Source: a virus. Taken from it: a stretch of DNA of 64,000 nucleotides. The stretch spans positions 62,001-126,000 of IMG/VR virus record IMGVR_UViG_3300042540_001399; one strand, written 5' to 3'. The translations under genes and the position numbers were made by a program. Positions within the stretch are counted from its first letter, which is position 1; every line of letters starts with the position of its first letter. Below are positions 12,701-33,024 of this stretch, piece after piece. The notes beneath the pieces are model-generated. The model made no database searches. It had not been told where the DNA came from and was given only the letters and a program-made list of their open reading frames with translations.

Positions 12701-12725
12701 CTTTAATTTACTTTGTATTCAATGA
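9723..12725 (+). CDS. Large putative baseplate protein with a tail-protein-I-like segment
   Basis: 1000 residues. Around residues 440-490 it carries an LFKSKGTRRSIEILLRLVGA segment. This resembles the helix containing the K-G-T element in P2 gpI/tail-protein-I-type baseplate proteins, which link baseplate to fibres in contractile tails (family comparison from memory). A Cys-rich patch (CQIIPVPCKPC) lies near 838-850. The rest is beta-rich and Asn/Thr/Tyr-rich. The TGA stop overlaps the next ATG (ATGA), and the downstream genes encode adhesins, so a role as the platform for fibres is plausible. Confidence is high that it is a structural protein, moderate for the P2-I comparison. Confidence 0.6.
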   Translation: MAVIKYKWPPQTDTGASTFSDDLVGVQLVAGGGLTNANFEFTTGLTEKQNRKFNIGAFSSPISLDDLDLKSVEESKVLIAKNLQVYPNFDLSQITNFTLFGSLTKRISTSISRIINYFPAGIESLSQNLNFQTGLTAVNMYYDKVLDETYLELPLNRIRNPFDIDFTTTATRNFELSEIEVSPLRNLTVEYLNYSIFVNSSEYNVIFLDPVDDTDTVLKLYVTGNPFSGLSATTSDIVLRPNTFYTEKSFNDFFDEVEKFLLNRLILPIYTATFQVPQENDDGTYSTVNQTISWPLDGSWNLDIRTNDFDKYLTTLNTICENLDSYNTNLISRFLTTGALKEFDTSDRKIEKVLQIYGRSFDEVRKFVMSLANMTSVNYNTGNDIPSQLLKNLAETLGWKTNISPISNEGLLDSIFGTNQESNFPGYSRALTPDEINYQFYKNLILNAAYLFKSKGTRRSIEILLRLVGAPEALIDFNEYIYIADEKINLSQFDKQYLNISSGLYVQQTPVLDPTDIFSIMGVQYTGFTLQTTVSGVSTTRLDYPMDNQGYPTAPQENDGYFFQIGGGWFESTPDHHMPEQVVPTNQVFVGQNPNYQTVLLPFNYGQIYLDRYRKFPFMSVGYGLNKTIDNKKSWTIDNVGLRKSSDGGFNAYYRVYDERYVVNVKNVDVFLNPAQGLAYDVWSMSRRYNYPIPNEGLDYVEPTYCNPNPNGPYPNRGGIDWTEINPKPKQKTFFEFAQTFWKNMINVRNRQFITDGKTGGYPTLQSIYWKYLESNQTINIPNDNFTYRTMIDYVNGLGDYWIKLVGQMIPATTLLTSGVRLENSIFHRQKFVWRRQMGCQIIPVPCKPCSLIGQLFAVDCPIQSATCPVYPWGSNPLITSFAVVLNQLLQNKGLVQPNCDPNTLESTWYVDLVLNGDLLSHYEFFTGYGNTSPTASYPSNTVWLSALQSALSNLQSEGLDYVINSDDTVTIYNSNCIPLSVTQNFEINVGINFNLLCIQ

Positions 12726-15484
12726 GTTGTGGTTCAATAAATATATTCAATTATTCAATTACGGGAGACTGTGAAAACACAGGATCTGGAGGTGTATCCT
12801 TTTCAATAAATGGGGGATCTCCAAACTATACAGTAACTGAATATTCATCAACAGGATTATTACCTACATCGGCAGATACCACATCATATTTTTTTGTAGG
12901 TCTTACCGCAGGAACGTATGTTATTGAAATAGTTGACAGTTGTTTAGAAGAACCACTTATTTCACAATTTGTAGAATTCACTATTTCTTCGGGAAGTTGT
13001 ATTTCTATCCAAAGTCAGGGAACAACGTGTGGACTAAACAATGGTTCTATAACGGCATCGACAACTAATATATATGGAACAGGATATTATTATTTATATG
13101 AAATTAATGATGGATACATAACAAGTGGTACCAACTTTAGTAATATTTTTAATAACCTGACACCTGGTTTTTATTATGTTATTGGAGATGATGGTGGTGG
13201 ATGTACCGGTCGTAGTGAAACTTGTCTAATAAAAGAAACAAACTCGTTGGACTTTGGTTTATATATCGTAAATGATGCTAGTTGTGTGCCAATAGATGGA
13301 ACCGGAAAAATATTTGTAACAGGTACAACAGGAACTCCACCTTATACATACAATTGGACACCGAATGTTGGACCCCAAACAGGTCCAATTGTTACTGGTC
13401 TTACCGCAGGAACCTATTCTGTAACAGTAACCGATAATTTGGGATGCTCAAAAACACAAAGTGTTTTGTTGACAGATGTGCCAAATTTAGGTATTGCCGC
13501 TATGTTAACAACAAGTCAACCATCTTGTTTTTCAAATGACGGAGTGGTTGATGTTATTGTTTCTGGTGGAACAGCACCTTATTATTTTTCAGGATCAAAC
13601 GGAGAAGTTGTTATACAATATAGTAATACATATACCTTTACGGGACTATCAAATGGTGTCTTCACAATTTCAGTCACAGACGCGGGTCTTTGTAATGTAA
13701 CATCATCAGTTTCCTTGATTACACCAAATGGTTTCATTGTAACATCTATGGTTGTTACAAATTCGAATTGTAATCAAACCGATGGCTCAGTTCATATTGA
13801 ACTCAATAATGGTCTGGCTCCAGGTAACTATCAGTACACACTCTATGATTATAATAGTAATCAAACAGTTATAACCACAACTTCTATTTGTGATTTTACC
13901 GGATTAGAAAGTGGAAGCTATACAATAACAATACAAGATGTACCCAACAATTCAGGATGTATTTATACAGGTTATTTTTCTGTTGTAAATCAAAATAAGT
14001 TCGAAATAAGTGTAAGTAATACTGACACAACTTGTGGATTGAATAATGGTGTTGCAATTATTACCGCAACCACAGGAGGAACATTACCTCTAAACTATAC
14101 ATTGTCGGGTGGTACACCTGTTACGACTACAACACAATTAACGAACGTATTTAACAATCTAAGTCCTGGTTTTTATCAAATAACAGTAACAGATTCTGCG
14201 GTACCATCATGTTCACAAACTGAATTATTTTATGTTGCTCCGTCACAGAACGTTAATATAAATTTAATTGGTGTCCCACCAGTAATAGGTAATGATGGTG
14301 AAATATTCCTTAATATTACAAGTGGTAATCCTCCATTTACAATTACGTGGAGTCCAAATGTTGGATCACAAACAGGACTACATTTAACAGGTTTGTCAAA
14401 TGGTAGTTATAGTGTTTTGGTTACAGATAGTGACGGATGTATTTCATCGGACATAATATCATTACAAGGCACTGAATTAGTTACAACTTACGCGTCTTTT
14501 AATTTGTGTACCGATGATTTCATAGACACAAAAACATATGGAAAAAGAGGAGTTCTTCAAATGATGAACGAAGGATTTTTCGATCTTACAACAGGTGATA
14601 CTGGTTGTGAAATAGTAGAAGCCTACTTTACAACCCAAGTCGAAATTGATGGTGTTGTAAAAGAAGATTTATTTTTAACTTACACGGGAACACCTTTTCC
14701 ACAATACGCAGACATTTTATGGATAGAAAGTCTTAGAACCACACTTAAAGAATTTGACGAAGTAGGAGATGTGATTATTGATTTGGCAACAAATAAAATA
14801 ACTATAACAAACAAATGTAACACAAAAATAAAGGACTGTGATATTGTAACTTTTAACGACTTTAGTGATACTAATGTCAAAATAAATTTGTTGGTTGAAT
14901 ATCTAATAAATTGTCAAACTTGTGGTAAAGCGCCTGATTGTATAGGATTCTATGCTGATATGTCAATTGTAAGTGGTGATTGTAGTGGTTTCAGTGCAAA
15001 TATGAATTTAGTGGGACCAACACCAACACCGTCAGTAACACCAACACCAACAATTACTCCTACACCTACAATCACACCTACAGTAACTCCGACAATTACA
15101 CCAACACCTACTATACCAGCAACTGGTTGTACCTGTTTCATATTAGAATCAAACGCCGATCTGGCGATTTTTGAATATACTAAATGTGGGGAGTCTACAC
15201 CAAGTACAATTCCTATTTTGTTTGGTACGGGATACACTTGTTCATCAACTACCCCTATTTTAATTAGTGGTATGGGATCGGTATTGGGTTCATCGGGTTC
15301 ATGTATAGTTTATGAATGGGAAATCACCTTTAGCGGTGGTGGATCATACACTACATATAATTGTGGTTCATCAAATGAAACTTCCGTTTTAAGTGGAGGT
15401 ACTTTCACGGTTTGTTCGACTATAACACCAACAAGTTCATCACCAAATTTTGTGTCAGCAGTAAATATTGGAATATGTCCTTAA
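12722..15484 (+). CDS. Modular phage adhesin with about seven SprB-type repeats and a Thr/Pro stalk
   Basis: 920 residues from the ATG at 12722, which forms an ATGA overlap with the preceding stop and is preferred over an ATG three codons upstream. About seven tandem beta-sandwich repeats span residues ~15-585. Each ends with the signature GLTAGTYSVTVTDNLGC or a variant (GLSNGSYSVLVTDSDGC, NLSPGFYQITVTDS) and several begin C..NDG or CGLNNG. This is the SprB-repeat pattern of Bacteroidota gliding adhesins. A unique domain (~590-745) follows, then a TPTPT/ITPT stalk (~766-800) and a Cys-containing C-terminal tip. With no signal peptide, it is a virion fibre or adhesin and not a secreted host protein. 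Likely role: host-surface binding. Confidence 0.75.
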   Translation: MSCGSINIFNYSITGDCENTGSGGVSFSINGGSPNYTVTEYSSTGLLPTSADTTSYFFVGLTAGTYVIEIVDSCLEEPLISQFVEFTISSGSCISIQSQGTTCGLNNGSITASTTNIYGTGYYYLYEINDGYITSGTNFSNIFNNLTPGFYYVIGDDGGGCTGRSETCLIKETNSLDFGLYIVNDASCVPIDGTGKIFVTGTTGTPPYTYNWTPNVGPQTGPIVTGLTAGTYSVTVTDNLGCSKTQSVLLTDVPNLGIAAMLTTSQPSCFSNDGVVDVIVSGGTAPYYFSGSNGEVVIQYSNTYTFTGLSNGVFTISVTDAGLCNVTSSVSLITPNGFIVTSMVVTNSNCNQTDGSVHIELNNGLAPGNYQYTLYDYNSNQTVITTTSICDFTGLESGSYTITIQDVPNNSGCIYTGYFSVVNQNKFEISVSNTDTTCGLNNGVAIITATTGGTLPLNYTLSGGTPVTTTTQLTNVFNNLSPGFYQITVTDSAVPSCSQTELFYVAPSQNVNINLIGVPPVIGNDGEIFLNITSGNPPFTITWSPNVGSQTGLHLTGLSNGSYSVLVTDSDGCISSDIISLQGTELVTTYASFNLCTDDFIDTKTYGKRGVLQMMNEGFFDLTTGDTGCEIVEAYFTTQVEIDGVVKEDLFLTYTGTPFPQYADILWIESLRTTLKEFDEVGDVIIDLATNKITITNKCNTKIKDCDIVTFNDFSDTNVKINLLVEYLINCQTCGKAPDCIGFYADMSIVSGDCSGFSANMNLVGPTPTPSVTPTPTITPTPTITPTVTPTITPTPTIPATGCTCFILESNADLAIFEYTKCGESTPSTIPILFGTGYTCSSTTPILISGMGSVLGSSGSCIVYEWEITFSGGGSYTTYNCGSSNETSVLSGGTFTVCSTITPTSSSPNFVSAVNIGICP
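15017..15120 (+). repeat. Thr/Pro stalk-encoding short repeats
   Basis: Degenerate tandem hexamers of the ccaaca/ccgaca type encode alternating Thr-Pro with Val and Ile interruptions. Similar tracts recur at 20826-20945, 23193-23350 and, inverted, at 26940-27480. Slippage could change stalk length. Confidence 0.8.
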
Positions 15485-15513
15485 ATAAAATAAAAATATA
15501 ATATATATAGAAT

Positions 15514-17694
15514 ATGGCACTTCAAGTAACAATTACAAATATAAATTCAGTAACATACCCTGTTGATGTATATGTTTGTACAGATTGTCCAGATACAAGT
15601 TGTACTTTAGTTGACACAATTTTTTCTGTACCATCAACAATAAACATACCCGCACCCTATAGCGGTTCATCTTCTTTTTCTGTTAGAATTGTAGATAGTG
15701 CCAATTGTGAATATTGTCAAACTTTTGGAAATACAACAACAACTACAACAACCATAAATCCATTGTGTTTAAGTTGTGATATTGGTTTTGATTTTTACGA
15801 TACTAACCCAATATCCGAAATTTCAGTTGGAGAAGTTACAGGAAGTTGTGATACAAATATTACTGATTACGTTATAAATTGGTATGGACCGGGTATTGGA
15901 AGTAGTACAGTTGCGTTTACTTCGGGTATAGGTAATTCATATAGTGGTGACTATACATATACACATCCGCTTACAGGATCATCGTCAGTTCCTGTTGTTG
16001 CAGGAGTCTACACACCAATAATACAAAAAATCAAATTGAATGGTATTGAGTACACGGACTTAAATTGTTTCCAATCAACTACAGTTGATGTTGATGCATT
16101 AACATGTATTAATGGACCTGGAACTAATTTGCCACAATATTCCCATTTGTTAAGTTTTAGTGCTGTTACAAATTTGAATCCACCACCGGTAAATGTGACT
16201 TACGCATTGGATCCTTTGAAACCATATTTTGCAATTAGATTCGATACTGAATTAGTTTATGACAGTTTGAAAATTACATTGAATGCTGCGGCATATACAG
16301 ACCCAATTATTTTAGAATATTTTACCGCGGGTCAGTCTTTAGGTGGATCAGATCTTAATTTAAATACAACACCAAAAAAATTCCAACATTCCTTTAGTCT
16401 ACCATTTGTGGCGAAAGTACTTACACTAACAGGGTTTACAATAAATACTGGTGATTATATTGATATAGAAGTTACCCCCAACCCAACAAACAATAACACA
16501 AATTGGAAACTTTATTGTGAATGTTTAGAAAATTTTGATTGTTCTTTGTGTGACGACACAAATAACACAACACCATTTAAAATAATTGAATCTTCTATAA
16601 CCCAAGGTGCTGCCAGCCCATGTGACATTATAAGTATGACTTTCCAAGTAAGTGCTTGTACATCAAGTGATTTTTTAAGATATATGTTAAATACTGGTGG
16701 TACTTTTTCTAATATTAATTATATTGATAATTTTTACCAAGGTATAGTGACCCAATATTTCACAAATATGAGCTCCACACCTCAGATTCAGTGTGTAAAT
16801 GGTGGGTACTACTTAACGCCACAATGTGATACACCAAGCAATTCTACAATTACTTATAGCAAAAATGTACCAGGAGCCGAAGGACAGATAACCATGACCT
16901 TCACTGATTTTACAGATTTTCAAGTATATAATAATGGATGGAATAACTTACTTTTTAGTTATTCGGGGAATCCTACAGATTGTACCGATATTGAATACTA
17001 CAGATATTTTTGGTTAACAATCCCACTAGCAAGTGGAAATGATAATTGTGGTGACACTACAGGTTACGAAACTTATTTTATTCACCCATCATCAACATTC
17101 ACAACTGGTGGAACAGGTCCATGGACAATAACAATTGATATGGCTACCATAACTGACTGTATTACATTTACTAGTTGTGATCTAAATTGTAATACTGAAG
17201 TTTTGACAACTTTAAGTAATGTAAATAATTCATCAACAGGAACAACTAATAATATTTCAATAACTTCAAACACAGGATCAAGATTAGTAACTCCGTGGCA
17301 TTCCGTAACACTTATAGATTCAGGGTCAACCACTTTTTCATCAAGTACAGTTACAAACCAAATGTGGATACCAAAATATATTAATGAAACAGTACCTTAC
17401 TCTGGAAATCCTCTCACCATAATTCCTAATCTTTCAGGGAAGACATGCGATTTCAATAATTGGACATATAATTCTGCAAATCCATCAATTAACAACGGTT
17501 TTTATGTGCAATTCGGGTTTTGGTACGAAGTTAGAAGGACAAACCCATTGAATGTTGCGGATTTCGAAATATGGACAACAAATTTAACAAATGGAACATA
17601 TACTGGTTATCCTGGTCAACCTACCGCATTATTTAAAATATATGAATTTGTAGGTGGGGTTCCTAATGTGATTGATCCAAACTTTTTTGTTTAA
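15514..17694 (+). CDS. Putative fibre/adhesin protein with a shared N-terminal module
   Basis: 726 residues. Residues 1-70 form a module also present in the proteins at 17696-18004 and 28019-28234: VTITN, then PVDVYVC, a second Cys about 9 residues later, then VRIVDSANCE. A Thr run (TTTTTTI) near residue 75 acts as a linker. The body is beta-rich with paired Cys (CLSCDIG, CSLCDD) and ends in an aromatic-rich domain (NWTYNSANPS, GFYVQFGFWYEVRR). No enzyme motif. An AT-rich upstream region (tataatatatatag) may be a promoter variant. Probably a tail-fibre or decoration protein. Confidence 0.6.
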   Translation: MALQVTITNINSVTYPVDVYVCTDCPDTSCTLVDTIFSVPSTINIPAPYSGSSSFSVRIVDSANCEYCQTFGNTTTTTTTINPLCLSCDIGFDFYDTNPISEISVGEVTGSCDTNITDYVINWYGPGIGSSTVAFTSGIGNSYSGDYTYTHPLTGSSSVPVVAGVYTPIIQKIKLNGIEYTDLNCFQSTTVDVDALTCINGPGTNLPQYSHLLSFSAVTNLNPPPVNVTYALDPLKPYFAIRFDTELVYDSLKITLNAAAYTDPIILEYFTAGQSLGGSDLNLNTTPKKFQHSFSLPFVAKVLTLTGFTINTGDYIDIEVTPNPTNNNTNWKLYCECLENFDCSLCDDTNNTTPFKIIESSITQGAASPCDIISMTFQVSACTSSDFLRYMLNTGGTFSNINYIDNFYQGIVTQYFTNMSSTPQIQCVNGGYYLTPQCDTPSNSTITYSKNVPGAEGQITMTFTDFTDFQVYNNGWNNLLFSYSGNPTDCTDIEYYRYFWLTIPLASGNDNCGDTTGYETYFIHPSSTFTTGGTGPWTITIDMATITDCITFTSCDLNCNTEVLTTLSNVNNSSTGTTNNISITSNTGSRLVTPWHSVTLIDSGSTTFSSSTVTNQMWIPKYINETVPYSGNPLTIIPNLSGKTCDFNNWTYNSANPSINNGFYVQFGFWYEVRRTNPLNVADFEIWTTNLTNGTYTGYPGQPTALFKIYEFVGGVPNVIDPNFFV

Positions 17695-17695
17695 T

Positions 17696-18004
17696 ATGGG
17701 ACAAATTCAAATTACTAGCACAAGTTTTACATCATTACCATATAATGTTTATGTTTGTGATGTTTATGGAAATCAATGTGTTTTAGTTGCAAATATTGTT
17801 ACATCACAACCACCAACAATAGTAATTAATGTTCCTATACAATTTAACAACGCACCCGCAATTGGAATAAAGATAATTGATTCTTTGGGATGTGAAATTT
17901 TTAAAATTTTAGATTGTTCACCTGATGGCTTTAATCAAAAACAATTTCAGGATGGGTATTTCTTTTATTTTATGGATAATGATTCTTACGATTTCCAAAA
18001 CTAA
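17696..18004 (+). CDS. Small protein made of the shared 70-residue virion module
   Basis: 102 residues from the ATG at 17696, one base after the preceding TAA; a TTG eight codons upstream lies inside the previous gene and is less likely. Residues ~1-70 align with the N-terminus of the preceding protein and with the whole of the minus-strand protein at 28019-28234 (LPYNVYVCDVYGNQC, later GIKIIDSLGCE). The C-terminal 30 residues are aromatic and polar (QFQDGYFFYFMDNDSY). It looks like a stand-alone copy of that module, perhaps a capping or decoration subunit. Function unknown. Confidence 0.6.
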   Translation: MGQIQITSTSFTSLPYNVYVCDVYGNQCVLVANIVTSQPPTIVINVPIQFNNAPAIGIKIIDSLGCEIFKILDCSPDGFNQKQFQDGYFFYFMDNDSYDFQN

Positions 18005-18006
18005 AA

Positions 18007-18015
18007 TATTTATAA
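18007..18015 (+). promoter_or_regulatory. TATTTATAA late-type promoter motif
   Basis: TATTTATAA in the 23-bp gap, 12 nt before the ATG at 18028. Confidence 0.5.
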
Positions 18016-18027
18016 GAAAAAAAATTA

Positions 18028-19494
18028 ATGTCATTTTTAACAGATAGAAATTTTGCTTCAGGTGTTTCGGTTAATGATTTAATTCACATTGTTATAACAG
18101 GTGATACATCACAAAATCCTGCCGGATCATCATATAAAACTACTTTGGGTGATGTAATTTCTTTAGTGACAGGAATTACAGGAAATTATTTACCAATAAG
18201 TGGTGGTACAGTTACGGGCACAACTTTCTTTATCAGTGGTTTATCGGCCAACACTTTTTCGGCATCAACTATTGGTTCATCAGGTAGTTGTGTAGACGAT
18301 TTGTATGTTTCGAATATACATTCATGTTCGCCTTTGAATATAAATCCATTTGACGAAGGTGAAGTTCTGTTTGGGTCCAATAAACAAATTTTTGTTGACT
18401 TAGTTGGTAAAAAAGTTGGATTCAATATGACCCCAACATATAATATTGATGCGATGGGAACTACTAATGGTAGATTTTTCTTTAGAGGTGCGTCCCTTCC
18501 AAGTATAAACATTTCTGGTACAAGTAACTCCTACGTATCCACAAACACTGTGGCAGGAAATGTTGGGTTATTGTCTGTTGCTTTTGGGGAATCATACCCA
18601 TCTAACCTTTATGGTGTTGTATCGGGAAATACTTTACTAACAAACACAAATGAATCAAATGATATGGTTATTTTAACCAATCAAAGTTCAACTAATGATA
18701 AAAATATAAAGTTTTTTGCTGGAAAATCTGCGGATACAAAACCTGATATTATTATTTTGGGTTCAGGATCAGGATTAAAAAGAGGGTATGTTGGTGTTGG
18801 ATTAAATAATCCCCAGGAACACTTACATGTTGATGGAAATTCTATAATCAACCAAGGATTAACCGCGGCAACATTTAATATTTCAACAGCACCTAATATA
18901 GATACAAATGTACCTACAGAATATCTAACAAGAGATGCTTCGACCGGTGAAGTTAAAATCAAACAAATTCCAGGACCAACCGTTTTCGGTTTATTTGCAC
19001 AAACAGGAAACAGTGTGGTTATCAGCGGTACCACAGTTGAATCTACTTTAATTGATGGAGGTGTTGGAACTTTATCTGTTCCGGCAAATGGTTTTTCTAT
19101 TGGGGATAGTTTTAGAGCGGACTTTGGTGGTTTAATGAGTGTAAAACCTGGTGGTGATACTTTAAGAATTAGAATAAAAACTGGTAGTGTTATTTTAGGT
19201 GATACTGGAGTTTTAAGTATACCGGCAGTAACAAACGATGTTTGGCTTTTAAATATAAATTTTACGGTAAGAAAACTTGGGGGACCAACGTTTGCTTCAA
19301 TTGTAAGTTTAGGAAATCTACATGTAATAAAAGCCGCAAGTACAACACCAACAAGTTTTGCCTTTAACACTGTTAACTCATCAACTTTTGATACAACAAT
19401 ATCAAATACACTTGACGTTACCGCCGAATGGGGAAGCAATAGTACTAATAACAAAATATATTCTGATATTTTTGTTCTAAATAAAATATATTAA
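18028..19494 (+). CDS. Putative tail fibre protein
   Basis: 488 residues. Residues ~48-62 contain NYLPISGGTVTGT, the short repeat typical of tail-fibre shafts in many caudoviruses. Around residues 250-270, KRGYVGVGLNNPQEHLHVDG matches the Gly-rich VGIG...P...LHV element found near the C-terminal regions of fibre and spike proteins. The last ~150 residues (GTTVESTLIDGGVGTLSVP to WLLNINFTVRKLGGP) look like a jelly-roll beta-sandwich head domain. Together these support a receptor-binding fibre. It has its own late-type motif and is followed by the glycosyltransferase. Confidence 0.75.
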   Translation: MSFLTDRNFASGVSVNDLIHIVITGDTSQNPAGSSYKTTLGDVISLVTGITGNYLPISGGTVTGTTFFISGLSANTFSASTIGSSGSCVDDLYVSNIHSCSPLNINPFDEGEVLFGSNKQIFVDLVGKKVGFNMTPTYNIDAMGTTNGRFFFRGASLPSINISGTSNSYVSTNTVAGNVGLLSVAFGESYPSNLYGVVSGNTLLTNTNESNDMVILTNQSSTNDKNIKFFAGKSADTKPDIIILGSGSGLKRGYVGVGLNNPQEHLHVDGNSIINQGLTAATFNISTAPNIDTNVPTEYLTRDASTGEVKIKQIPGPTVFGLFAQTGNSVVISGTTVESTLIDGGVGTLSVPANGFSIGDSFRADFGGLMSVKPGGDTLRIRIKTGSVILGDTGVLSIPAVTNDVWLLNINFTVRKLGGPTFASIVSLGNLHVIKAASTTPTSFAFNTVNSSTFDTTISNTLDVTAEWGSNSTNNKIYSDIFVLNKIY

Positions 19495-19529
19495 ATTCAC
19501 TTTGTCTATTTTGACAATATATTTTCAAT

Positions 19530-20507
19530 ATGAAAGATATTGTATTTGTTACGGCACAACCAGACGTTCCTTATTTCCATTGGCAAGTTAAATTATATAC
19601 CCACAATTTTATAAAAAAAGGCATCAATCCAAATAACATACATGTAATATTTGCAATGGTTCATGGTGCAAAAAAACCAACTGATGAAGCTTTAAAAATA
19701 AAAGATTATGGTGTTAATGTTCATTTTTATGAAGATAATAGAGATATTAAAACATATATACCAAGCATAAAACCTTATATGATCACACAGTGGTTAAAAG
19801 AGTTTCCCGAACATGGTAAATTGTTTTTTTTACATGATGCGGATATAATATTTAACTACCTACCAAATTTCGAAGAACTTTTAAAAGACGAACTTACTTA
19901 TGTATCTGACACAATTGGGTATATAGGTTATAACTATATTATGGATTGTTGTAATAGATATGAAACAAAACATCCAAATTCACAAAAAGGACAGTTACTA
20001 CAAGAAATGGTTAATATTGTAGGTGTAACAGTAGATTGTGTAAAATGTAATCAAGAAAATTCTGGTGGTGGTCAATATCTAATTAAAAACACTGATCATA
20101 ATTTATGGCAAAAAATATATGACGATTGTTCTCCATTATATTATCAGATGTTAGATTATCAAAAAAGATTTCCCATAAGTCCAGGTGAAATTCAATTTTG
20201 GACGGCAGAAATGTGGTCATTACTTTGGAATCTATGGTTAAACGGTAACGAAACCAAAATAACTAAAGAGCTTAATTTTTCATGGGCAACTGACACCATA
20301 GGAGTTTTCGAAAAAAATCCAATACTACATATGGCAGGTGTAACCGAAAATCTAAAAGGTACTAAGTTTTACAAAGGAGAATACATTAATATTGACCCAA
20401 TCCAAAAATTAAAATCTAACCCAAACCATTTTGATTACATAGATAAAAACAGCTCAACAATCAAGTATGTTGAAGTAATGAAATCTTTCATTCAAAATGA
20501 CTTATAA
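19530..20507 (+). CDS. Putative GT-A-type glycosyltransferase in the fibre locus
   Basis: 325 residues. A HDADIIF segment at about residues 102-108 supplies a D-x-D metal/nucleotide-sugar motif preceded by hydrophobic strands (KLFFL), as in GT-A-fold enzymes. GGGQYLIKN (~179) and QFWTAEMWSLLWNLW (~221-235) supply the acceptor-side and later acidic elements. The overall pattern reminds me of hydroxyproline O-arabinosyltransferase-like enzymes, but that needs a profile search. No signal peptide or membrane helix, so it acts in the cytoplasm during virion assembly. It is flanked on both sides by Thr/Pro-stalk or SprB proteins, which are obvious candidate acceptors (inference). Confidence 0.65.
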   Translation: MKDIVFVTAQPDVPYFHWQVKLYTHNFIKKGINPNNIHVIFAMVHGAKKPTDEALKIKDYGVNVHFYEDNRDIKTYIPSIKPYMITQWLKEFPEHGKLFFLHDADIIFNYLPNFEELLKDELTYVSDTIGYIGYNYIMDCCNRYETKHPNSQKGQLLQEMVNIVGVTVDCVKCNQENSGGGQYLIKNTDHNLWQKIYDDCSPLYYQMLDYQKRFPISPGEIQFWTAEMWSLLWNLWLNGNETKITKELNFSWATDTIGVFEKNPILHMAGVTENLKGTKFYKGEYINIDPIQKLKSNPNHFDYIDKNSSTIKYVEVMKSFIQNDL

Positions 20508-20510
20508 ATG

Positions 20511-20519
20511 TATTTATAA
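20511..20519 (+). promoter_or_regulatory. TATTTATAA late-type promoter motif
   Basis: TATTTATAA 12 nt before the GTG at 20532. The spacing matches the copy before 18028, supporting the GTG as the real start. Confidence 0.5.
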
Positions 20520-20531
20520 TTAAAATATACA

Positions 20532-21584
20532 GTGGGACAAACAGATAGACCTAAACCAGTACTTGCACCCAGGAATGAATGTGATGTTATTACAATTTTT
20601 CCTATGGGGGCAAAATGTTTTACAAAAGAACCAACTAATGTAACAACATTTGATGGTGCGGTTTCGGTTGGTATTACAGGGGGAACACCACCATATACTA
20701 TAGCTTGGGAAAATGGTAATGTTGCGCCGGCAATAACAAATTTAGGTGTCGGTGAATATAACGTAACAATTACAGATTCCTACGGTGATTTTGTTATAAA
20801 CCAAAAATGTGTTCTCAACGCCACACCACTTCCAACTCCAACTCCAACTCCAACACCGACCATAACTCCAACACCGACCATAACTCCAACACCTTCTGTA
20901 ACACCAACATCAACTCCTATACCAACATTGACACCATCGGCAACACCAGAACCTTTAATTTGTTTTACCACTGAATATGAATTTTTAGGTCCGATTTATA
21001 CATCAATGTCATCAACAGGACAATATAATGGAAGACCATACTACGAACTAATAGGTCTTGGTGGAAGTGCTTTTGTTTGGTGGAATTCCGGATTGTCAAG
21101 ATGGGAAATGACATTATTCTTAGGTGGTGGTCTACTTTTGGCATATTTACCAAGTACTAATTCTTTTCCTGTTGACCAAACAGTTGATTGGGTAAATGTA
21201 AGAACTGTTTATATGTTAACATCATATGGGCTTTGTAGTTATCCACCAACAGAAATGTGTTTTGAAGTTTTAAAGAATGACCCACCAACAACACTGATAT
21301 GTAATGGATATATTGTTGGTACTTATAATAATAAGTTTTATTTTGCAATATACAGTCCTGTAACGTCACCACCAACATTAATTGGGTATGTATTTTGGGA
21401 TGATGTTGACAACAGATGGGAATGTTGGCAAACTTTTAACCCATCTACAGGCCCCACAGGAAGTTTTTATGCTTATTTATCAAATAACGCTAATTACCCA
21501 AATAGTACAATTTCTCAAAACTGGGTTTCAAACCCACTTGTGACATATGGAATAAACAGTTCTTCACTAGGGACTTGTCAGTAA
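20532..21584 (+). CDS. Modular adhesin: SprB-like domain, Thr/Pro stalk and two Trp-rich modules
   Basis: 350 residues from a GTG start (GTG-GGA-CAA-ACA); no in-frame ATG precedes the conserved domains. Residues ~25-95 are one SprB-type repeat (GGTPPYTIAWENG, then GVGEYNVTITDS). A pure Thr/Pro stalk follows (~97-140), partly encoded by an 18-bp direct repeat. The C-terminal half is two tandem copies of an ~80-residue module: NGRPYYELI, FVWWNSGLSRWEM, LLAYLPS; then NNKFYFAIY, YVFWDDVDNRWEC, FYAYLSN. This module recurs in the neighbouring gene and in the minus-strand adhesin. The paired Trp/Tyr suggest sugar binding (inference). Probable distal fibre or adhesin. Confidence 0.7.
   Translation: MGQTDRPKPVLAPRNECDVITIFPMGAKCFTKEPTNVTTFDGAVSVGITGGTPPYTIAWENGNVAPAITNLGVGEYNVTITDSYGDFVINQKCVLNATPLPTPTPTPTPTITPTPTITPTPSVTPTSTPIPTLTPSATPEPLICFTTEYEFLGPIYTSMSSTGQYNGRPYYELIGLGGSAFVWWNSGLSRWEMTLFLGGGLLLAYLPSTNSFPVDQTVDWVNVRTVYMLTSYGLCSYPPTEMCFEVLKNDPPTTLICNGYIVGTYNNKFYFAIYSPVTSPPTLIGYVFWDDVDNRWECWQTFNPSTGPTGSFYAYLSNNANYPNSTISQNWVSNPLVTYGINSSSLGTCQ
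20826..20945 (+). repeat. Thr/Pro stalk repeats including an 18-bp tandem direct repeat
   Basis: Three ccaact hexamers are followed by two exact copies of an 18-bp unit (ccaacaccgaccataact) and then degenerate copies, all encoding TPTPTPT with Ile and Ser interruptions. Confidence 0.8.
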
Positions 21585-21597
21585 AATACTAATTTAA

Positions 21598-22593
21598 ATG
21601 AATTTGTGTGTAGTTACAGAAGTTTTAGAAAATAGGGAAAGAAAAATAGAAACCTATAATTTTATTGAATCCGAAATGTTGAACGGTAAAAGTTCTTGGG
21701 TTTTTGAAGAACAATATTTTTTATATTGGTCTACTGGTACAACAAATCAGTGGATTTTAAGTGGGTTTCCAAATACTTTTATTTATACATTTTCGAATAC
21801 AGAAATACCTTTCACTAATTGGCAAATTTTAGGATCAAGACCCCCAAAACAAATAACAAACTTAAGAATAACAACTGGTGAGTGTGAAAATAATGTCGTG
21901 GTAGATTATAATGTTAATATTAAAAACAGTTCTTGTAAATGTGATGGTATTATATCAATAGATCCATTTAGCGGAACAGAACCATTTACATATTATCTAA
22001 ACGGTCAAATACAGACAGGAAACATAATTCAAAATTTATGTAGTGGTAGATATGTTATTACGGTTGAAGACGTAAACGGAAACACAACAATTAAAGAAGT
22101 AGTAATACCACAAAATGATGTTACCCAATATTTTGTCACGTTGAATTTTGATAAAACAACGGGATATTTTAATATTTTTTGTAACCCAAGTTTAAACAAT
22201 AACATTCAGTTAAGTTTAGATTTAGTGTATCAAAACACACTCAAATATAAACCTAATTTTGGTGATGTAAGTCAAAATACAAATGAACAAATTATTTTAA
22301 ATGGAAATGACATAGGACAGTATACTACCAAAATTGATAATACACAGTCTACGCCACTTTTGAGACCCTGTGTTGGTAATAATTACAATAACGTTACAAC
22401 TAAAGAATGGAAAAATTTAATTATTGGTAATGGTGATACTTTGGAAGGTTACATTAGTAGTGATTTAATCTATAATGTAGATTTGAAAACACCTTGTTTA
22501 AGTGCATCACAGGATCTTGTACTTAATTTGAATAATCTTAGATTAATAAATTGTGAATGTTGTAATGTTACAAAAGTTATTATTAACAAATAA
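21598..22593 (+). CDS. Adhesin-like protein with a Trp-rich module and one SprB-like repeat
   Basis: 331 residues. Residues ~27-80 resemble the Trp/Tyr module of the preceding gene (NGKSSWVFEEQYFLYW, then TNQWILSGFP). Residues ~105-185 are a SprB-type repeat beginning SSCKCDGIISI and ending CSGRYVITVEDVNGN. The C-terminal ~140 residues are beta-rich without a recognised fold and end in a Cys pair (NCECCNV). It starts 13 bp after its neighbour and appears to be in the same unit. Likely a fibre accessory or adhesin subunit. Confidence 0.6.
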   Translation: MNLCVVTEVLENRERKIETYNFIESEMLNGKSSWVFEEQYFLYWSTGTTNQWILSGFPNTFIYTFSNTEIPFTNWQILGSRPPKQITNLRITTGECENNVVVDYNVNIKNSSCKCDGIISIDPFSGTEPFTYYLNGQIQTGNIIQNLCSGRYVITVEDVNGNTTIKEVVIPQNDVTQYFVTLNFDKTTGYFNIFCNPSLNNNIQLSLDLVYQNTLKYKPNFGDVSQNTNEQIILNGNDIGQYTTKIDNTQSTPLLRPCVGNNYNNVTTKEWKNLIIGNGDTLEGYISSDLIYNVDLKTPCLSASQDLVLNLNNLRLINCECCNVTKVIINK

Positions 22594-22607
22594 AAAAAGT
22601 TATTTAA

Positions 22608-22616
22608 TATTTATTA
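22608..22616 (+). promoter_or_regulatory. TATTTATTA late-type promoter motif
   Basis: TATTTATTA only 5 nt before the ATG at 22622. If it is a -10 element, the mRNA would be nearly leaderless. Confidence 0.4.
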
Positions 22617-22621
22617 TTTAA

Positions 22622-25210
22622 ATGGCATATATAATTAAAAATACATCGGGATTGGTTAACACAAGAGTTACCGATACAGGTAGACAAAAGTTATCACAAG
22701 GTAACTTCAAAGTTGCCTATTTCCAAATTGGGGATAGTGAAATATCATACGATAAATTACCTTCTAATTATAACTTTACAAATTCCTTTGTTTTAGAACC
22801 AGCATTTAATACTCAAAATTCTGCAGGTGTTCCAGAGTCAAATAGACAAAGCATTAAATATCCATACTATGTTGATGGAACTAGTGGATCTACTTATGGA
22901 ATACCTTACATGGATTCTACGATAGATCCTGTTTATAATAGGGCACCACTAAGAGGGTTTTTTACAGGAAACACAACCGCAAGTACAGTCGTTTGGAGTG
23001 CATTAACTAACAATCAATACGTGGTTTCTTCAAACTATATTATTGATATGTCAACTCTAAATGGTACTAATAAAGTTGATTTAATTTATTCTGGATGTAA
23101 TTATACAAATACAAACAAACCATCTATTGGGGATTTAATTACAATATATTATGATGGTTTTGGTGAGTATGACTGTAATTGTGTTAATTTACCAACACCG
23201 ACTCCTACACCTACACCGTCAATCACACCAACCGAAACTATCACACCAACTCCAACACCAAGTATCACACCTAATTATAACCCTTGTGCATCGCCAACCC
23301 CAACACCAACTCCAACAAGGACACCGTGTTTAACACCTACTCCGAGTAGACTTTGTCCTCCACCACCGCCACCAAGTTGTGTTATGTCTATGAATTCATG
23401 TTATCAAATTCTGACATATAGAATAATTGATATATGTGAAAATACTATAACACTTGATAGAAACACACCCGATTTTTGTGGTACAGTAATAACACATTGT
23501 TACGCACGTACATTGATCTATCCGCCAAATATGACTTCTATTTATGATAGTATAACTCCAAGTCCACATTGGGGCGAACAAGTAATCGATTTTGAATCTA
23601 TTTGTGATACAGATCAATTTGATGTGAAAATATGGAACATGAATATTCCATGGACCGAAAATCCCGCTGGTATGATACCTACAAAATATGAAGGATATCA
23701 ATATTTTGGTTCAGTTGATTATATAGGATCAAAAGAATACTTTGGATACAATTCAAATTCAGGACAAACATTTTTTATCAATAATACTTTGAGTGCTGAG
23801 ACTACAGATACTTTTTATTACAATTCTTTAGGTGAAATCGTCAAAGTACAACCCGAAGAACAAAAGGCAATTGCCATCATACATTATACTAATCAAACAA
23901 TTGATTTCTTTTATGGTGAAAAATTTGCACTGGAACCGTATGATCCAAGCAACTTAGACGATACAACAGGACAGGCTAGAAATTTTAGACTTCATATACC
24001 TTGGTTGATGTGGCATAAGAATCCTGAATGTTGTTTTGGTCAAACTTTTTGGGTTGATCCTCCAGGATTTGAAGGTAAAAATCTTTTTGATGTTAGATAT
24101 GTTCAGACAACTAGAAATGATGATATGAATAATCCCGGTATTAGATATTATCATTTGTGGGATACTAATAAAAACAAAAACGGTTTACCTAATCGAATTG
24201 GTAAAGTTTTCCCTGATAGTAAATTAATTATTATTGACGATGAAGAAATAATTGCCGCGATGTCTTATAAGGCAAATAGAAATTGGACTTTGCCGGCACC
24301 TCAATTATCGCTTATAACCCCAAATACTTGTGGATTAGCGTCTTTAACTGCTGATGGGGTTTTGACAGGTCATGGTGAAACTATGTATGTCACTTATAGG
24401 TTTACAAATAAAACTTGTAGTACAAATTCACTTCATTGCAATTACTATGTAAAACTTGTTGGGAATAATAATGATTGTACGCCTAATGTTTCACAAAATG
24501 TTGCCATTAGATTTGGTCGCGAATTTAATTGTTTGGATTATATGATACCAACAACAACGACGACAACGATACCAATATTTACTACTACAACTACAATTCC
24601 ATTCACAACTACAACAACAACAGATCCTTTTCCATTAACAACGACTACAACTTTTTGGCCGTACACCACAAGTACAACAACAATATGCCCACCTTCTTGT
24701 AATATAAATAAAGGTTTCTTTGCTGAATCATTCCAAGTTTTATGTCAGAAAGTGAAAACAGGACAAAGACCGGATCCATCAAGTTGGAAAATAATTGATT
24801 ACACACAAGACTTAGGTAATTTAGTAACACAAGATACTTTGACAAACAATACTTTTGTTATAACGAAAGATCTTTACGATAAGGCTCCATATTACGACTT
24901 GGGTAGTTATATAAACTTGACTAAATTAGGAAATGACAAACCTGATTTAAATTTTGGTGACGAATATTATTTTTACGGTTCCTTTGAATCAGATATAATG
25001 GCAACCATATATCAGATGAAATATAAGATAAATTTAAATTTTACAGAATTTCAAAATTCAACTAACCCAACATGGAAACAAGGAACAAAATCATTCGTAA
25101 CCGAAATTGCATTATTGGATGAGGATAAAGACATTCTTGTAATGTCAAAGTTACAATCACCTGTGTTAAGACAAGGAATACAACAGTATTTAGTCAAACT
25201 TGACTTTTAA
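22622..25210 (+). CDS. Large tail/fibre protein with Thr/Pro and poly-Thr stalks
   Basis: 862 residues. The N-terminal ~120 residues ([26 protein letters not shown]) look like a virion-attachment domain; I recall similar N-termini in large T4-like phage structural proteins. A Thr/Pro stalk (~191-243) ends in six prolines and a Cys. A folded region of ~380 residues (250-640) contains [10 protein letters not shown] and [17 protein letters not shown] second stalk made almost wholly of Thr (~643-690; [15 protein letters not shown]) precedes a C-terminal ~170-residue domain. Two chemically different stalks in one protein suggest an elongated fibre and potential O-glycosylation sites (inference). 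Confidence 0.65.
23193..23350 (+). repeat. Thr/Pro stalk-encoding repeats
   Basis: Degenerate ccaaca/cctaca hexamers encode [13 protein letters not shown]-type sequence and end in a poly-Pro run within the gene at 22622-25210. Confidence 0.75.
24548..24690 (+). repeat. Poly-Thr stalk repeats
   Basis: Aca/acg/act-rich tract encoding four runs of five or six Thr separated by Ile/Pro/Phe-containing spacers, within the gene at 22622-25210. Confidence 0.75.
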
Positions 25211-25258
25211 CCTTTAATTTTTTTTCATTTAAATTATTTTATAACTAAAACCAACTTT

Positions 25259-25858
25259 ATGGCTAAAATCAAAAATTCACCAAAAGTCTTAGGATTAGAT
25301 ATATCTACTAAAACAATTGGTTGGGCTTTGTTCGATATACAAAGTCAACAACTTTTAGAACTAACACACGTTTCCCCAAGACCAAAAATGAAAGAAGATG
25401 AAAAATTAAAAGAGTTACTTTTAAAATGTGAAATCTTTAGAGAAAAATTGATACAATACAAAAATTTAGGAATTGTCAGTGTGGTAATTGAAGAACCACT
25501 TCTTAATTCGAATAATATCTATACAATCCAAACCCTGTTAAGATTTAATAGTTTTATTTTCAAAGAAATATATGAAATATTAAATGTTGTACCTGAATTT
25601 ATATCAACATATAATTCCCGTAAATTTGCTTTTCCTGAATTAGTCCAAGAAAATGAAAAGAAAAAATTTGTTTTGTTTGGAGGTCTACCAAAAGATATTG
25701 ATAAGAAAATGATTATATGGGAAAAAGTTGCTAAAAGAGAACCACAAATAAAATGGTTATACACAAGAAATAATACACTTAAAAAAGAAAATTTTGACCA
25801 AACAGATGCATATACCTGTGTTTTAGGATATATGAGATCTAAAGAAATTTGGAAATGA
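25259..25858 (+). CDS. RuvC-like Holliday-junction-type nuclease
   Basis: 199 residues with the RuvC/RNase H fold layout. The N-terminal strand has the first catalytic Asp (VLGLDISTKTIGWALFD), a central strand has acidic residues (VSVVIEEPL, ~residue 80), and a C-terminal helix has the final Asp residues (FDQTDAYTCVLGY, ~179-183). RuvC enzymes cleave four-way junctions; in a T4-like phage this would resolve recombination intermediates before packaging, the job gp49 does in T4. No tetramer or DNA-binding details can be read. A terminator follows it. Confidence is high for the fold, moderate for junction resolution. Confidence 0.8.
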   Translation: MAKIKNSPKVLGLDISTKTIGWALFDIQSQQLLELTHVSPRPKMKEDEKLKELLLKCEIFREKLIQYKNLGIVSVVIEEPLLNSNNIYTIQTLLRFNSFIFKEIYEILNVVPEFISTYNSRKFAFPELVQENEKKKFVLFGGLPKDIDKKMIIWEKVAKREPQIKWLYTRNNTLKKENFDQTDAYTCVLGYMRSKEIWK

Positions 25859-25887
25859 TATCGTTCAAAATACCGATAATTTGAAAT

Positions 25888-25913
25888 ATCGTCTTTTTAG
25901 ACGATTTTTTTTT
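25888..25913 (+). terminator. Intrinsic terminator
   Basis: Six-base stem ATCGTC/GACGAT with a TTTTTA loop, followed by an uninterrupted T run, 30 bp after the RuvC-like gene. Confidence 0.75.
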
Positions 25914-25937
25914 ATTCAAAAAAAATTATTATATTTG
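25907..25937 (+). promoter_or_regulatory. Host-type (Bacteroidota) promoter
   Basis: TATATTTG at 25930-25937 matches TAnnTTTG. TTTT lies where TTTG is expected, 19 nt upstream. It ends 24 nt before the ATG at 25962 and lies just after a terminator. Confidence 0.6.
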
Positions 25938-25961
25938 TAAAATAAACAAATAAAAATAACT

Positions 25962-26378
25962 ATGAAAATCTTATCTTTGGTTTTTTCACTATTATTAACT
26001 TTTAATTTTTTTTCTCAACAAGTCGTAATTCAAGTAGATGAAGTTCAGTCATACTTTGGTGATACTACATCAACCATGACAGAAATATTTGAAAAAAAAT
26101 ATAACTTGGAACCACAACATAAAAATTGTAGGTATATAATCGATTTTACAAATAATAAAGCAAGTTTTTTTAGAGATGGGGAACTTATTGATCACGGATC
26201 TATAAAAGTAGGGCATGAAAACGAATATACAGTTGTTGAGTTTCTTAACGACGGATTTAATTATGGACTAATTTTAAATTTAGATATCCATAATGAATTG
26301 GTAGTTCTTTATCAAATAGATAATGATAAGGTTGAGTATATGAATTTCACTAGATTTCAGATTCTTAAACCAATGTAG
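25962..26378 (+). CDS. Small secreted protein of unknown function
   Basis: 138 residues. An N-terminal signal peptide is clear: two residues into the protein a Lys, then about 16 hydrophobic residues (ILSLVFSLLLTFNFF), then SQQVV as a probable signal-peptidase I region. The mature part is polar (HKNCRYIIDFTNNKASFF) with no known motif. It has its own terminator-promoter boundary and a host-type promoter, so it is likely made early. A secreted early protein could alter the periplasm or exclude other phages, but nothing in the sequence shows that. Confidence 0.7.
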   Translation: MKILSLVFSLLLTFNFFSQQVVIQVDEVQSYFGDTTSTMTEIFEKKYNLEPQHKNCRYIIDFTNNKASFFRDGELIDHGSIKVGHENEYTVVEFLNDGFNYGLILNLDIHNELVVLYQIDNDKVEYMNFTRFQILKPM

Positions 26379-26400
26379 AAATATTTTTTTTTATAATACT

Positions 26401-28017
26401 TTAGTGAATTGAATCTGAACAAAGATCTATAATAGTTCCACCGGCCATAGAAGCCCCATTACCCGAAATTGTTATTGTGGTATATGGTACATCGTTTGAA
26501 AAGGTGAATATTCCCGATCCAATATCACCGTATGGTGCATTTTGTGGACAAGGTATTGCGGAAATTACGTTCCCATTAATTTTTGCACAACAACTACTAC
26601 AAGTACTTATCACTGGATTACCTGTATTTGTTGTGATTATAAATTCTTCGTAAACAGTTGATGAAATGTAATTGTAATTTATGAATCTAAGCGTTACATT
26701 ATTAACAGGACTATCAAAAGTTAGAGTGTAAGTAAATGGGTTGTTTCCTGGTAAAATATCATTACCCAAATATAAAAAGTTGTCTTCTACATTTGGACCC
26801 GAAATACACCAACCTAAAAATCCACCAAAAGTTCCCGCTTCTATTTTTCCAGTACCACTACCTGTAATATTAACACCGTTAACAACTATTGAATTACCAA
26901 CTTGAGGTAATGTTACAACTTGTGAACATTCAAAACAACCAGGTGGTGTTGTAGGTGTGGGAGTTGGTGTTGCTGTAGGCGTTGGTGTAGGTGTTTGGGA
27001 AGGACTTGGGATACAATCTAAACATTTACCTTCATTTTCAGGACCTAATTCTGAAATTAATTCTATTTGATCTACACCACTTATGTTATCAACCAAACCT
27101 ATGAAGGTTGCACAAATTGATTCGTTGTTTATTATAGTTTTATAAACATATCCTTCTAAAGGAATTTCACCATTTATTAACAATAATTCGGTTGAGTAAT
27201 ATTCTATACCTGTGAAACAATCTCTGAATTTCTTACTACTTGAACATCTAATGTAATCATCAATCACATTAAATGTTACTTGACCAGAAACCAAACAATT
27301 TATTGTAGGTGTTGGTGTTGGACTTGGAGTTTCACTTGGAGTTGGAGTTGGTGTTGGTGTGAATGTTATTCCTGTTGCTTGAAAACTCAAACTATTACAA
27401 ACATTTGATGGTGTCGGTGTAGGTGTCGGTGTAGGTGTCGGTGTTTTTGTCGGGGTGACAGTAGGTGTTGGTGTAATGTCACAATTAAAATATGCTTCAA
27501 AATCTATTAGCTCACAACTTGGAAAAGTTGTTGATGTAGTTATGACACAGTATCCTTCAGAAAAAAATGAATCACATAAATCAGGACAATCACTTGTACA
27601 TGGACTTTTACCAAATAGTAAACACGGCTCATCAAGGTCGTTAGCCAAACACCAACAATTCTCATCAGAACTATAGTATATTACAAAATCACCAGTCCCA
27701 CCTGTGTAATAAGGAAGTCCATTATATGTTCCATTCGAAGTGTAGTTACCATCGTACAACGATGTCCCTGAAATACAATACTGATTTGAACACGGACAAT
27801 CATCAATGGAATCAATCCCCGATATTTGTTTATATTCTAAAACTATTGACCCATTTGAATAGTACCCGTTTGTTGCTTCTGAAGTACAGATTGAATCGAA
27901 ATATAAAATTGTACCAAGATTCAAATCATTCCCATACAATGGTATAATCAAAGGTTCTGAACATAATTCAGGGTCAATAGTTGAGTTTGAAAAATATCCT
28001 AAAAAAATACAAGCCAT
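26401..28017 (-). CDS. Modular adhesin with three Thr/Pro stalks, opposite orientation
   Basis: 538 residues. An N-terminal Cys-rich region contains one copy of the Trp/Tyr module seen at 20532-21584 ([26 protein letters not shown]). Three Thr/Pro stalks follow at about residues 180-204, 219-238 and 337-359, separated by Cys-containing beta domains, with a C-terminal Gly/Thr-rich beta domain ([16 protein letters not shown]). Its ATG lies one base after the stop of the small module gene at 28019-28234. It is related to the plus-strand adhesins but transcribed toward them, separated by the nuclease and the secreted protein. Likely an alternative or accessory fibre. Confidence 0.7.
26940..27480 (-). 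repeat. Three Thr/Pro stalk repeat tracts
   Basis: Ggtgtt/ggtgta hexamer tracts at about 26940-27010, 27303-27365 and 27405-27480 encode TPTPTP on the minus strand. The last contains exact alternations of ggtgtcggtgta. Confidence 0.75.
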
Positions 28018-28018
28018 T

Positions 28019-28234
28019 TTATACTTCTATTATGTTTGTTTTTATACATTCATTGTCATCGATTACTTTTACTACAAACTGTGAAAAACTTGAATATATT
28101 GAAGGTATTTCAAATGTATACGGGGCGGTTGTAATTGTGTCGACATATATACATGTAGTTAATCCCGTATTACATACCCAAACATCAAAAGGTGATGAAC
28201 CGGCAAGATTTGTTATTGTTACTGTTGTAGGCAT
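28019..28234 (-). CDS. Small protein consisting of the shared 70-residue virion module
   Basis: 71 residues, aligning along its whole length with the N-terminus of the protein at 15514 and with the protein at 17696. The shared elements are VTITN, FDVWVC, a second Cys about nine residues on, IP after about 15 more residues, then [10 protein letters not shown]. It is the first gene of the two-gene minus-strand adhesin unit and has a TATTTATTT motif 13 nt upstream. Pairing of this module with an adhesin gene both here and around 17.7 kb suggests a fibre-associated role. Confidence 0.65.
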
Positions 28235-31148: not shown

Positions 31149-31928
31149 ATGATTAAAAAACTTATACACTTTTCTGATTTACATATAAGATTATTCAAAG
31201 ACCATGAGATTTACAGATTAATTCTTGAAAATGCATTTAACGAATGGAAAAATTTAAATCCTGATAGAATTGTGTTTACTGGTGATTTAGTCCATTCAAA
31301 AAATCAAATGACTCCCGAACTTATTGAAATGGTAAGTTGGGTATTGAAAGAATGTTCTTCGATTGCAAAAACAATAATTATACCTGGTAACCACGACTTT
31401 TTAGTGAATAACACAGAAAGATTAGACGCTCTTTCACCAATAATAAATTCTTTGAACAACCAAAATATTGTATATTACAAAGATCGCGGTGTTTATGAAG
31501 ACGAAAATGTTAGTTGGTGTGTTTATTCTCAGTATCAACATAATATACCGCCAGATATCAACGTAGCAACAGGAATAAAAATTGGATTGTTCCATGGACC
31601 TATATCTGGTCTTAAAACGGATTTAGGGTTTGAATTTGGTGAAGAAGCTTATGATGTTGAAAAATTTGATGGTTTAGATGTTGTTTTGTGTGGGGACATT
31701 CACAAAAGATCTGAATTTAAATTCAAAACAGGAAAAGGATATATGATTGGGTCTACAATCCAAAATAATATTGGTGAAAGTGTTAACAATCACGGATATG
31801 GTGTTTACGACATACCAAATAAAGATTATGTTTATGTTGATCTATTTAATCCTAAACCATTTCTTAAGTTTTCAATTAGTTCATTCACAGATTTAGAACA
31901 TGGAACCGAAAAAATCCAAAATATTTAG
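31149..31928 (+). CDS. gp47/SbcD-like recombination nuclease subunit
   Basis: 259 residues with all the calcineurin-type phosphoesterase motifs in order: DLH (residues 10-12), GD (45-46), GNHD (80-83), FHG (148-150) and GDIH (182-185). Length matches the catalytic core of T4 gp47/Mre11/SbcD. With the gp46-like ATPase at 33310 it would form the complex that resects DNA ends for recombination-dependent replication and host-DNA breakdown. The two are separated by three genes, unlike T4's close pairing. A weak late-motif variant (TATTTAGTA) lies just upstream. High confidence. Confidence 0.88.
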   Translation: MIKKLIHFSDLHIRLFKDHEIYRLILENAFNEWKNLNPDRIVFTGDLVHSKNQMTPELIEMVSWVLKECSSIAKTIIIPGNHDFLVNNTERLDALSPIINSLNNQNIVYYKDRGVYEDENVSWCVYSQYQHNIPPDINVATGIKIGLFHGPISGLKTDLGFEFGEEAYDVEKFDGLDVVLCGDIHKRSEFKFKTGKGYMIGSTIQNNIGESVNNHGYGVYDIPNKDYVYVDLFNPKPFLKFSISSFTDLEHGTEKIQNI

Positions 31929-32610: not shown

Positions 32611-33014
32611 TACAATTATTAATTTGGGTGATGGTTGCCTACGGAATGACAAACATTTTGGTTTACGGATCAATTTTTAATGGAATAAGGGATGGAATAC
32701 GTAATTGGGGTAACAATGAGTTAGCTCCTTTTAACTATATGGGATCTTTTATATCGGCATTAATATCGTGTGTTTTATGTACATCAACATGGGTTGGGTT
32801 TTTCTTATCATTAACATATTTTTCACCAAGTTATAATATCATTGGAACTAATAAAATTTTATCCGTATTTTTTGACGGGATGTTATCTGCTGGTTTTGTT
32901 TGGGCAATAAACTCTATAATCGAATGGTTCGAAGAAAATAGATTGTCAAATCAAAAACAAGAAGTTACATATGTGATACCTGAAGATGAAGAAGAACAAA
33001 TATTAAACGATTAA
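32607..33014 (+). CDS. Small membrane protein
   Basis: 135 residues with three likely membrane segments (residues ~2-20, ~47-70, ~84-103) and an acidic C-terminal tail (YVIPEDEEEQILND). The second segment contains ISCVLCTSTWVGFF; the Cys-x-x-Cys before Trp recalls DUF1360-type membrane proteins (recollection, low confidence). It starts in an ATGA overlap with the coiled-coil gene. Function unknown. Confidence 0.6.
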   Translation: MIQLLIWVMVAYGMTNILVYGSIFNGIRDGIRNWGNNELAPFNYMGSFISALISCVLCTSTWVGFFLSLTYFSPSYNIIGTNKILSVFFDGMLSAGFVWAINSIIEWFEENRLSNQKQEVTYVIPEDEEEQILND

Positions 33015-33024
33015 TAAAAATAAA

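Follow-up and report, generated by a model that had tools for sequence, protein, structure and literature searches.

A phage glycosyltransferase family coupled to poly-threonine runs and predicted to glycosylate virion proteins

What does a phage glycosyltransferase-like gene act on when it is set among genes for threonine-rich stalk proteins? The question is raised by a 64,000-nucleotide stretch (the window; positions 62001–126000 of the 290,887-base virus record IMGVR_UViG_3300042540_001399 of IMG/VR, a large freshwater phage). An earlier note on this DNA had placed a GT-A-like enzyme with a D-x-D motif, open reading frame (ORF) 19530, among four proteins with Thr-Pro or poly-Thr stalks, and had supposed that the phage glycosylates its own fibres on Thr-Pro; all the ORFs that it named are present. 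Comparison of relatives with the enzyme gene (enzyme-positive) and without it (enzyme-negative), together with a structural model, points to another acceptor: in our judgement ORF 19530 most probably encodes a cytoplasmic GT-A enzyme that O-glycosylates virion proteins of the phage itself at runs of about five or more threonines (T5+ runs).

The ORF 19530 product matches phrog_4417 ('unknown function') over its full length (residues 6–319, E = 1.8e-68); it has no Pfam match at E ≤ 1, and its profile finds no PDB chain at E ≤ 10. A direct PDB sequence search returned only ABC-transporter matches, dismissed as chance. The AlphaFold model (36 aligned sequences; predicted local distance difference test 95.3, predicted template modelling (TM) score 0.92) has the GT-A fold: the top PDB matches from Foldseek against solved structures are all GT-A enzymes (E about 1e-6, TM about 0.4–0.5), the nearest being UGGT (GT24), glycogenin, LgtC and xyloside xylosyltransferase XXYLT1 (GT8) and ABO transferases (GT6), at 8–13% identity. 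No sequence-level membership in GT8, GT24 or GT6 was found with Pfam models or PDB-chain profiles. Enzymes of GT24, GT8 and GT6 are retaining, which makes an alpha linkage a reasonable expectation for ORF 19530. The D-x-D reported earlier lies in an H-D-A-D motif, and the putative catalytic residues are conserved: D103 in 158 of 158 distinct relatives, D105 in 157, and Q182 and H267 in 157–158. By analogy with LgtC we take it that these four may be metal ligands and active-site residues. On the strength of the model we regard the product as a GT-A glycosyltransferase, with nucleotide-sugar transferase activity predicted. An initial lead, resemblance to plant hydroxyproline arabinosyltransferase (HPAT, GT95), was rejected with no Pfam match at E ≤ 1, and the single Pfam model tried for a prolyl hydroxylase partner (2OG-FeII_Oxy_3) found none in the 290,887-base record.

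The enzyme is coupled almost strictly to poly-Thr, in unrelated phages that number hundreds. A run of six or more threonines (T6+) occurs in 198 of 205 enzyme-positive loci versus 1 of 136 enzyme-negative control loci, so that Thr-rich stalks are far beyond chance. An IMG/VR scan with the window enzyme gave 255 relatives under the scan used. Isolate-phage records gave 74 (roughly 30–38% identity, nearly full length), from phages of Enterococcus, Lactobacillus, Lactococcus, Staphylococcus, Arcanobacterium and Chryseobacterium; the phrog_4417 family, also labelled 'prophage pi2 protein 34', carries annotations in phages of Enterococcus, Lactococcus and Staphylococcus. Poly-Thr proteins lie near the enzyme gene in all 14 isolate phages inspected, at 35 of 36 enzyme loci in a scan of bacterial genomes (typically as a C-terminal tail on capsid and tail-tube proteins, e.g. 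TTTTTTSA) and at 80 of 80 in a third scan. Among the 80 closest relatives of the window enzyme, 74 loci have a T6+ run; stalks of either the Thr-Pro or the poly-Thr kind are present at 78, and the remaining two are loci that end shortly past the enzyme gene.

In phages of Bacillota, Actinomycetota and Bacteroidota the enzyme gene stands next to tail-tube, capsid or Thr-rich genes or not far from them. It lies directly 3′ of the tail-tube gene in phiFL1A, 1706, SA2 and TPWB06, of the capsid gene in bIL285, nattely, 4995_1 and CHPC836, and of a small Thr-rich gene in iLp84, Iacchus and LpeD. Adjoining virion genes and coupled to a capsid and tail feature, it falls functionally under predicted phage virion glycosylation. 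The small poly-Thr protein adjoining the enzyme in Lactobacillus phage LpeD (LpeD_68, L637:7578-7982) bears the annotation of a herpesvirus-like 'glycoprotein gp2', which its mucin-like composition probably explains. The lone exception among the bacterial genomes, in Sphingobacterium detergens, is a cluster on the chromosome that shows no evident phage genes; there the enzyme relative (L109:10001-11533) has thioredoxin-like, membrane and glycosyltransferase-2-like genes as neighbours, and the cluster may serve peptide modification.

The features of this phage that bear on the choice of acceptor are as follows (window positions, except for the last).

12713..15484, +: SprB-repeat protein (12722 in the earlier note); Thr-Pro stalk 15005–15136; no T5+ run
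15514..17694, +: 726-residue protein without family match; T7 run; predicted substrate
15733..15753, +: T7 run of the 15514 protein, overlooked in the earlier note
19530..20507, +: glycosyltransferase, 325 residues, GT-A fold, phrog_4417; D103-x-D105, Q182 and H267 conserved family-wide
20532..21584, +: 350-residue protein; Thr-Pro stalk 20808–20948; no T5+ run
21598..22593, +: 331-residue protein, weak SprB-like match; conserved next to the enzyme gene in relatives
22622..25210, +: 862-residue stalk protein; Thr-Pro stalk 23180–23368 and poly-Thr insert; best-tested predicted substrate
24551..24652, +: poly-Thr insert of the 22622 protein (T6..T5..T6..T5), found only in enzyme-positive homologues
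26401..28017, −: 538-residue protein; three Thr-Pro stalks 26923–27018, 27292–27378 and 27391–27489; no T5+ run
Record positions 31451–34774 (outside the window): tail sheath (phrog_23 tail sheath, E = 1.4e-58); T7 insert, ITTTTIPPTTTSTTTNPCITPTPVVPTTTTTTT

Thr-Pro stalks are thus confirmed in all four proteins for which stalks had been noted, with poly-Thr also in the 22622 protein. Among the structural-region ORFs examined in the window, T5+ runs are confined to the 22622 and 15514 proteins, and the poly-Thr association does not predict the SprB-repeat protein as a substrate. Outside the window, a 155-residue protein has the C-terminus NTTTTTTLFF, and a 958-residue protein (G000:C1:286256-289132) carries a PTPTPT stalk, with a C-terminal part that resembles a papain-type cysteine peptidase by eye only.

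Since co-occurrence could by itself arise if poly-Thr were common, homologues of tagged proteins were gathered by their cores, ignoring the presence of the enzyme. For the 22622 protein, with its N-terminal part as query, distinct and complete homologues have a T5+ run in 44 of 44 enzyme-positive and 0 of 7 enzyme-negative phages (p = 9e-9); 11 enzyme-negative records (56 to 304 kb) have no enzyme copy anywhere in their available sequence. In one enzyme-negative homologue (L541) the insert is cleanly absent, with FGCM-VQPSYS-AGTPCITSC where the poly-Thr loop would sit. The enzyme-negative homologues are without any T5+ run and retain their PTPTPT stalks: poly-Thr tracks the enzyme and Thr-Pro does not. 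Sheath homologues have a T5+ run in 10 of 13 distinct enzyme-positive cases versus 0 of 5 enzyme-negative (p = 0.007), so the sheath is often, yet not always, tagged.

These controls bear on the likeliest of the alternatives, itself very unlikely: that the Thr-Pro stalks are the substrate and an RmlB encoded in the window supplies a dTDP-deoxysugar donor. Such stalks do flank the enzyme in most relatives, and the RmlB assignment made in the earlier note is sound (ORF 59848, 59848–60774; match to dTDP-glucose 4,6-dehydratase 6bi4, E = 8.6e-65, with STDEVYG and YxxxK present). Against this, the stalks persist in enzyme-negative relatives, and the tags of Bacillota phages are poly-Thr with little or no proline. 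Among 17 long related records, moreover, a close relative of the RmlB (86–100%) occurs in only 3 of the 11 that are enzyme-positive, two of these being copies of this phage, and no further dTDP-deoxysugar genes were seen among the nearby ORFs tested. The RmlB is therefore unlinked to the enzyme. What survives of the earlier proposal, and is well supported by co-occurrence and fold, is an enzyme among stalk genes that would glycosylate the phage's own virion, with Thr-Pro as acceptor and RmlB as donor source set aside; the joint occurrence of stalk and enzyme genes that it looked for in relatives holds for poly-Thr but fails for Thr-Pro, whose stalks occur without the enzyme, the outcome that it had itself counted as adverse.

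The same coupling is found on unrelated scaffolds in Bacillota phages. Tail-tube homologues carry a poly-Thr tail at 18 of 18 enzyme-positive and 0 of 51 enzyme-negative loci (p = 6e-17), and capsid homologues at 5 of 5 and 0 of 54 (p = 2e-7); the cores are similar and the final residues differ, as in FGKPYPSTTTTTTTTTSA versus FGKPYPTGEQGGVEG. Tails are acquired jointly by the capsid and tail-tube genes, which lie some 3 kb from each other; both tails occur in 21 distinct loci, and the residues past the last T-run agree between the capsid and tail-tube proteins of one phage in 11 of these 21 (3.1 in shuffles; p = 5e-5). In Staphylococcus phage SA2 (L085:5111-5924) and Arcanobacterium phage TPWB06 (L090:5158-5920) the tail-tube gene ends in poly-Thr followed by CCC-TAA, where a +1 reading opens a long poly-Thr extension; some tail-tube subunits thus probably receive a mucin-like tail through programmed +1 frameshifting.

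A second alternative, slightly less probable again, is that the enzyme modifies phage DNA, host teichoic acid or capsule, and that the poly-Thr tails are only co-inherited with it in a single genetic cassette. DNA and host surface polymers are indeed targets of many phage glycosyltransferases, as discussed in PMC12619734, and the 3′ end of the tail-tube gene adjoins the enzyme gene, which would allow joint transfer. However, capsid tails some 3 kb away, internal inserts in sheath and stalk proteins and small Thr-rich proteins also track the enzyme, and a single cassette fails to explain poly-Thr on unrelated proteins across three host phyla. Association by itself does not tell an acceptor from a docking site, and poly-Thr could be a tag that recruits the enzyme to glycosylate another site of the same virion protein or to act non-enzymatically; this we hold improbable, given that the tail-tube, capsid, sheath and stalk scaffolds are wholly different, with poly-Thr their sole common feature, and that the DxD and putative active site are conserved. 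That the runs are neutral DNA repeats or generic linkers, associated with the enzyme through sampling of related phages, can be all but set aside: slippage can generate homopolymers and the sequences are phylogenetically clustered, but the runs are encoded by mixed codons (ACA/ACT/ACC/ACG) and were therefore selected as protein rather than being DNA microsatellites, other residues seldom form comparable runs (Val runs, in 22 loci, are probably the antisense of Thr codons), only the single control locus noted above has a T6+ run, and the labels switch on the tail-tube tree.

Several observations weigh against glycosylation of poly-Thr by the phrog_4417 enzyme, or soften the case for it. Kinship among the sequences inflates the apparent independence behind the p-values: on the tail-tube core tree the enzyme label changes 14 times and the tail label 13, but well-supported branches force only 3 switches, so the p-values overstate independence. 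For the tail-tube and capsid controls, absence of the enzyme was judged within a few kb of the locus. A T5 run of their own is missing from two enzyme-positive tail-tube proteins (L091 and L115) and from 3 of the 13 enzyme-positive sheaths. Finally, a reverse search for poly-Thr ORFs (nine ACN codons) found the enzyme at 12 of 92 random IMG/VR loci, mostly as the adjacent gene, and 35 records searched over their whole length yielded two further copies; most random viral contigs with poly-Thr thus show no enzyme copy, many of these contigs being fragments. Ten stalk neighbours tested in enzyme-lacking poly-Thr loci were mostly tail proteins and unrelated enzymes, apart from one family-2 glycosyltransferase adjoining a poly-Thr stalk protein (L479:4240-5067); no phrog_4417 enzyme was observed at that locus. 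Other enzymes may serve some poly-Thr proteins, or such proteins may be something else.

On the reading that we prefer, with poly-Thr the acceptor suggested by the coupling, the enzyme would act in the host cytoplasm on newly synthesised virion proteins, moving sugar from what is presumably a host nucleotide sugar onto threonines in runs of about five or more. The analogy of the nearest folds leads us to expect a retaining mechanism and an alpha-O-glycosidic bond. In this phage we predict two targets within the window, the 22622 and 15514 proteins, and a third beyond it, the tail sheath; for Bacillota phages the predicted targets are poly-Thr tails at the C-termini of tail-tube, capsid and connector proteins. 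Multi-copy capsid, tail-tube or sheath subunits would then give many dense glycan patches per particle, each a putatively mucin-like, hydrated patch on the virion surface, resistant to protease or recognition; the phage would probably gain hydration and stiffness, protection from proteases, or shielding.

With less assurance, though we lean towards it, the proposal can be widened: one widespread phage family would constitute a general 'poly-Thr glycotag' system, in which short Thr runs placed on nearly any virion protein (capsid, tail tube, sheath or stalk, in some phages probably by programmed frameshifting) receive O-linked sugar in the host cytoplasm to give a mucin-like coat, in phages of at least three host phyla. 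If so, the glycotag would be portable to other proteins and could yield a simple genetically encoded glycosylation tag, and the poly-Thr tails on many phage tail and capsid proteins would be accounted for. A family of unknown function thereby becomes open to testing as a protein-glycosylation system, since its predicted acceptor is precise and isolates are at hand (for instance bIL285 and 1706 in Lactococcus and phiFL1A in Enterococcus).

Lactobacillus phage LP65 encodes a remote relative of the enzyme, orf49 (TM 0.70; L493:1-1107 spans orf49–orf51). This orf49 adjoins two proteins that share the C-terminal Thr-rich tag TTTETQTQTQA(N/K), one of which is named in its record as a structural protein detected by mass spectrometry; this suggests that enzyme and tag change together.

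Among known systems, the retaining enzymes of GT24, GT8 and GT6 share the fold and the DxD with the window enzyme but differ by low TM, 8–13% identity and the lack of a sequence-profile match. The window enzyme belongs to the same family as 'prophage pi2 protein 34' (phrog_4417), for which a function is now proposed by association. Eukaryotic mucin-type O-glycosylation serves as a working analogy, through dense O-glycosylation of Thr-rich tracts; it differs in that the phage enzyme is predicted to be cytoplasmic and has no detectable relation to it, and in that the tracts are pure Thr rather than Pro/Thr/Ser repeats. Literature searches, whose coverage left subscription journals and preprints mostly outside, found no description of poly-Thr tails on phage virions with a phrog_4417 enzyme.

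The closest counterpart is found in mycobacteriophages (Che8, Corndog, Myrna), where virion glycosylation is phage-encoded and the C-termini of capsid and tail-tube subunits bear glycans (Freeman 2023, cited in PMC12363180, PMC12619734 and PMC11256854). Phage-encoded glycosyltransferases, capsid and tail-tube C-termini as sites and a likely glycan shield are common to both; here they are predicted from sequence. In Che8, by contrast, the capsid and tail-tube proteins end in NKTGS and YSDGS, without poly-Thr, and homology of its enzymes to ours was rejected, comparison of gp108–110 with the phrog_4417 family by hidden Markov models and hhalign giving no signal. The phrog_4417 phages differ further in having the enzyme beside virion genes and in their hosts, which are Bacillota, Bacteroidota and an Arcanobacterium. 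The principle of virion glycosylation is therefore already known from mycobacteriophages, though detailed so far in few of them; what appears new is a non-homologous enzyme family coupled to poly-Thr, which suggests that virion glycosylation is much broader.

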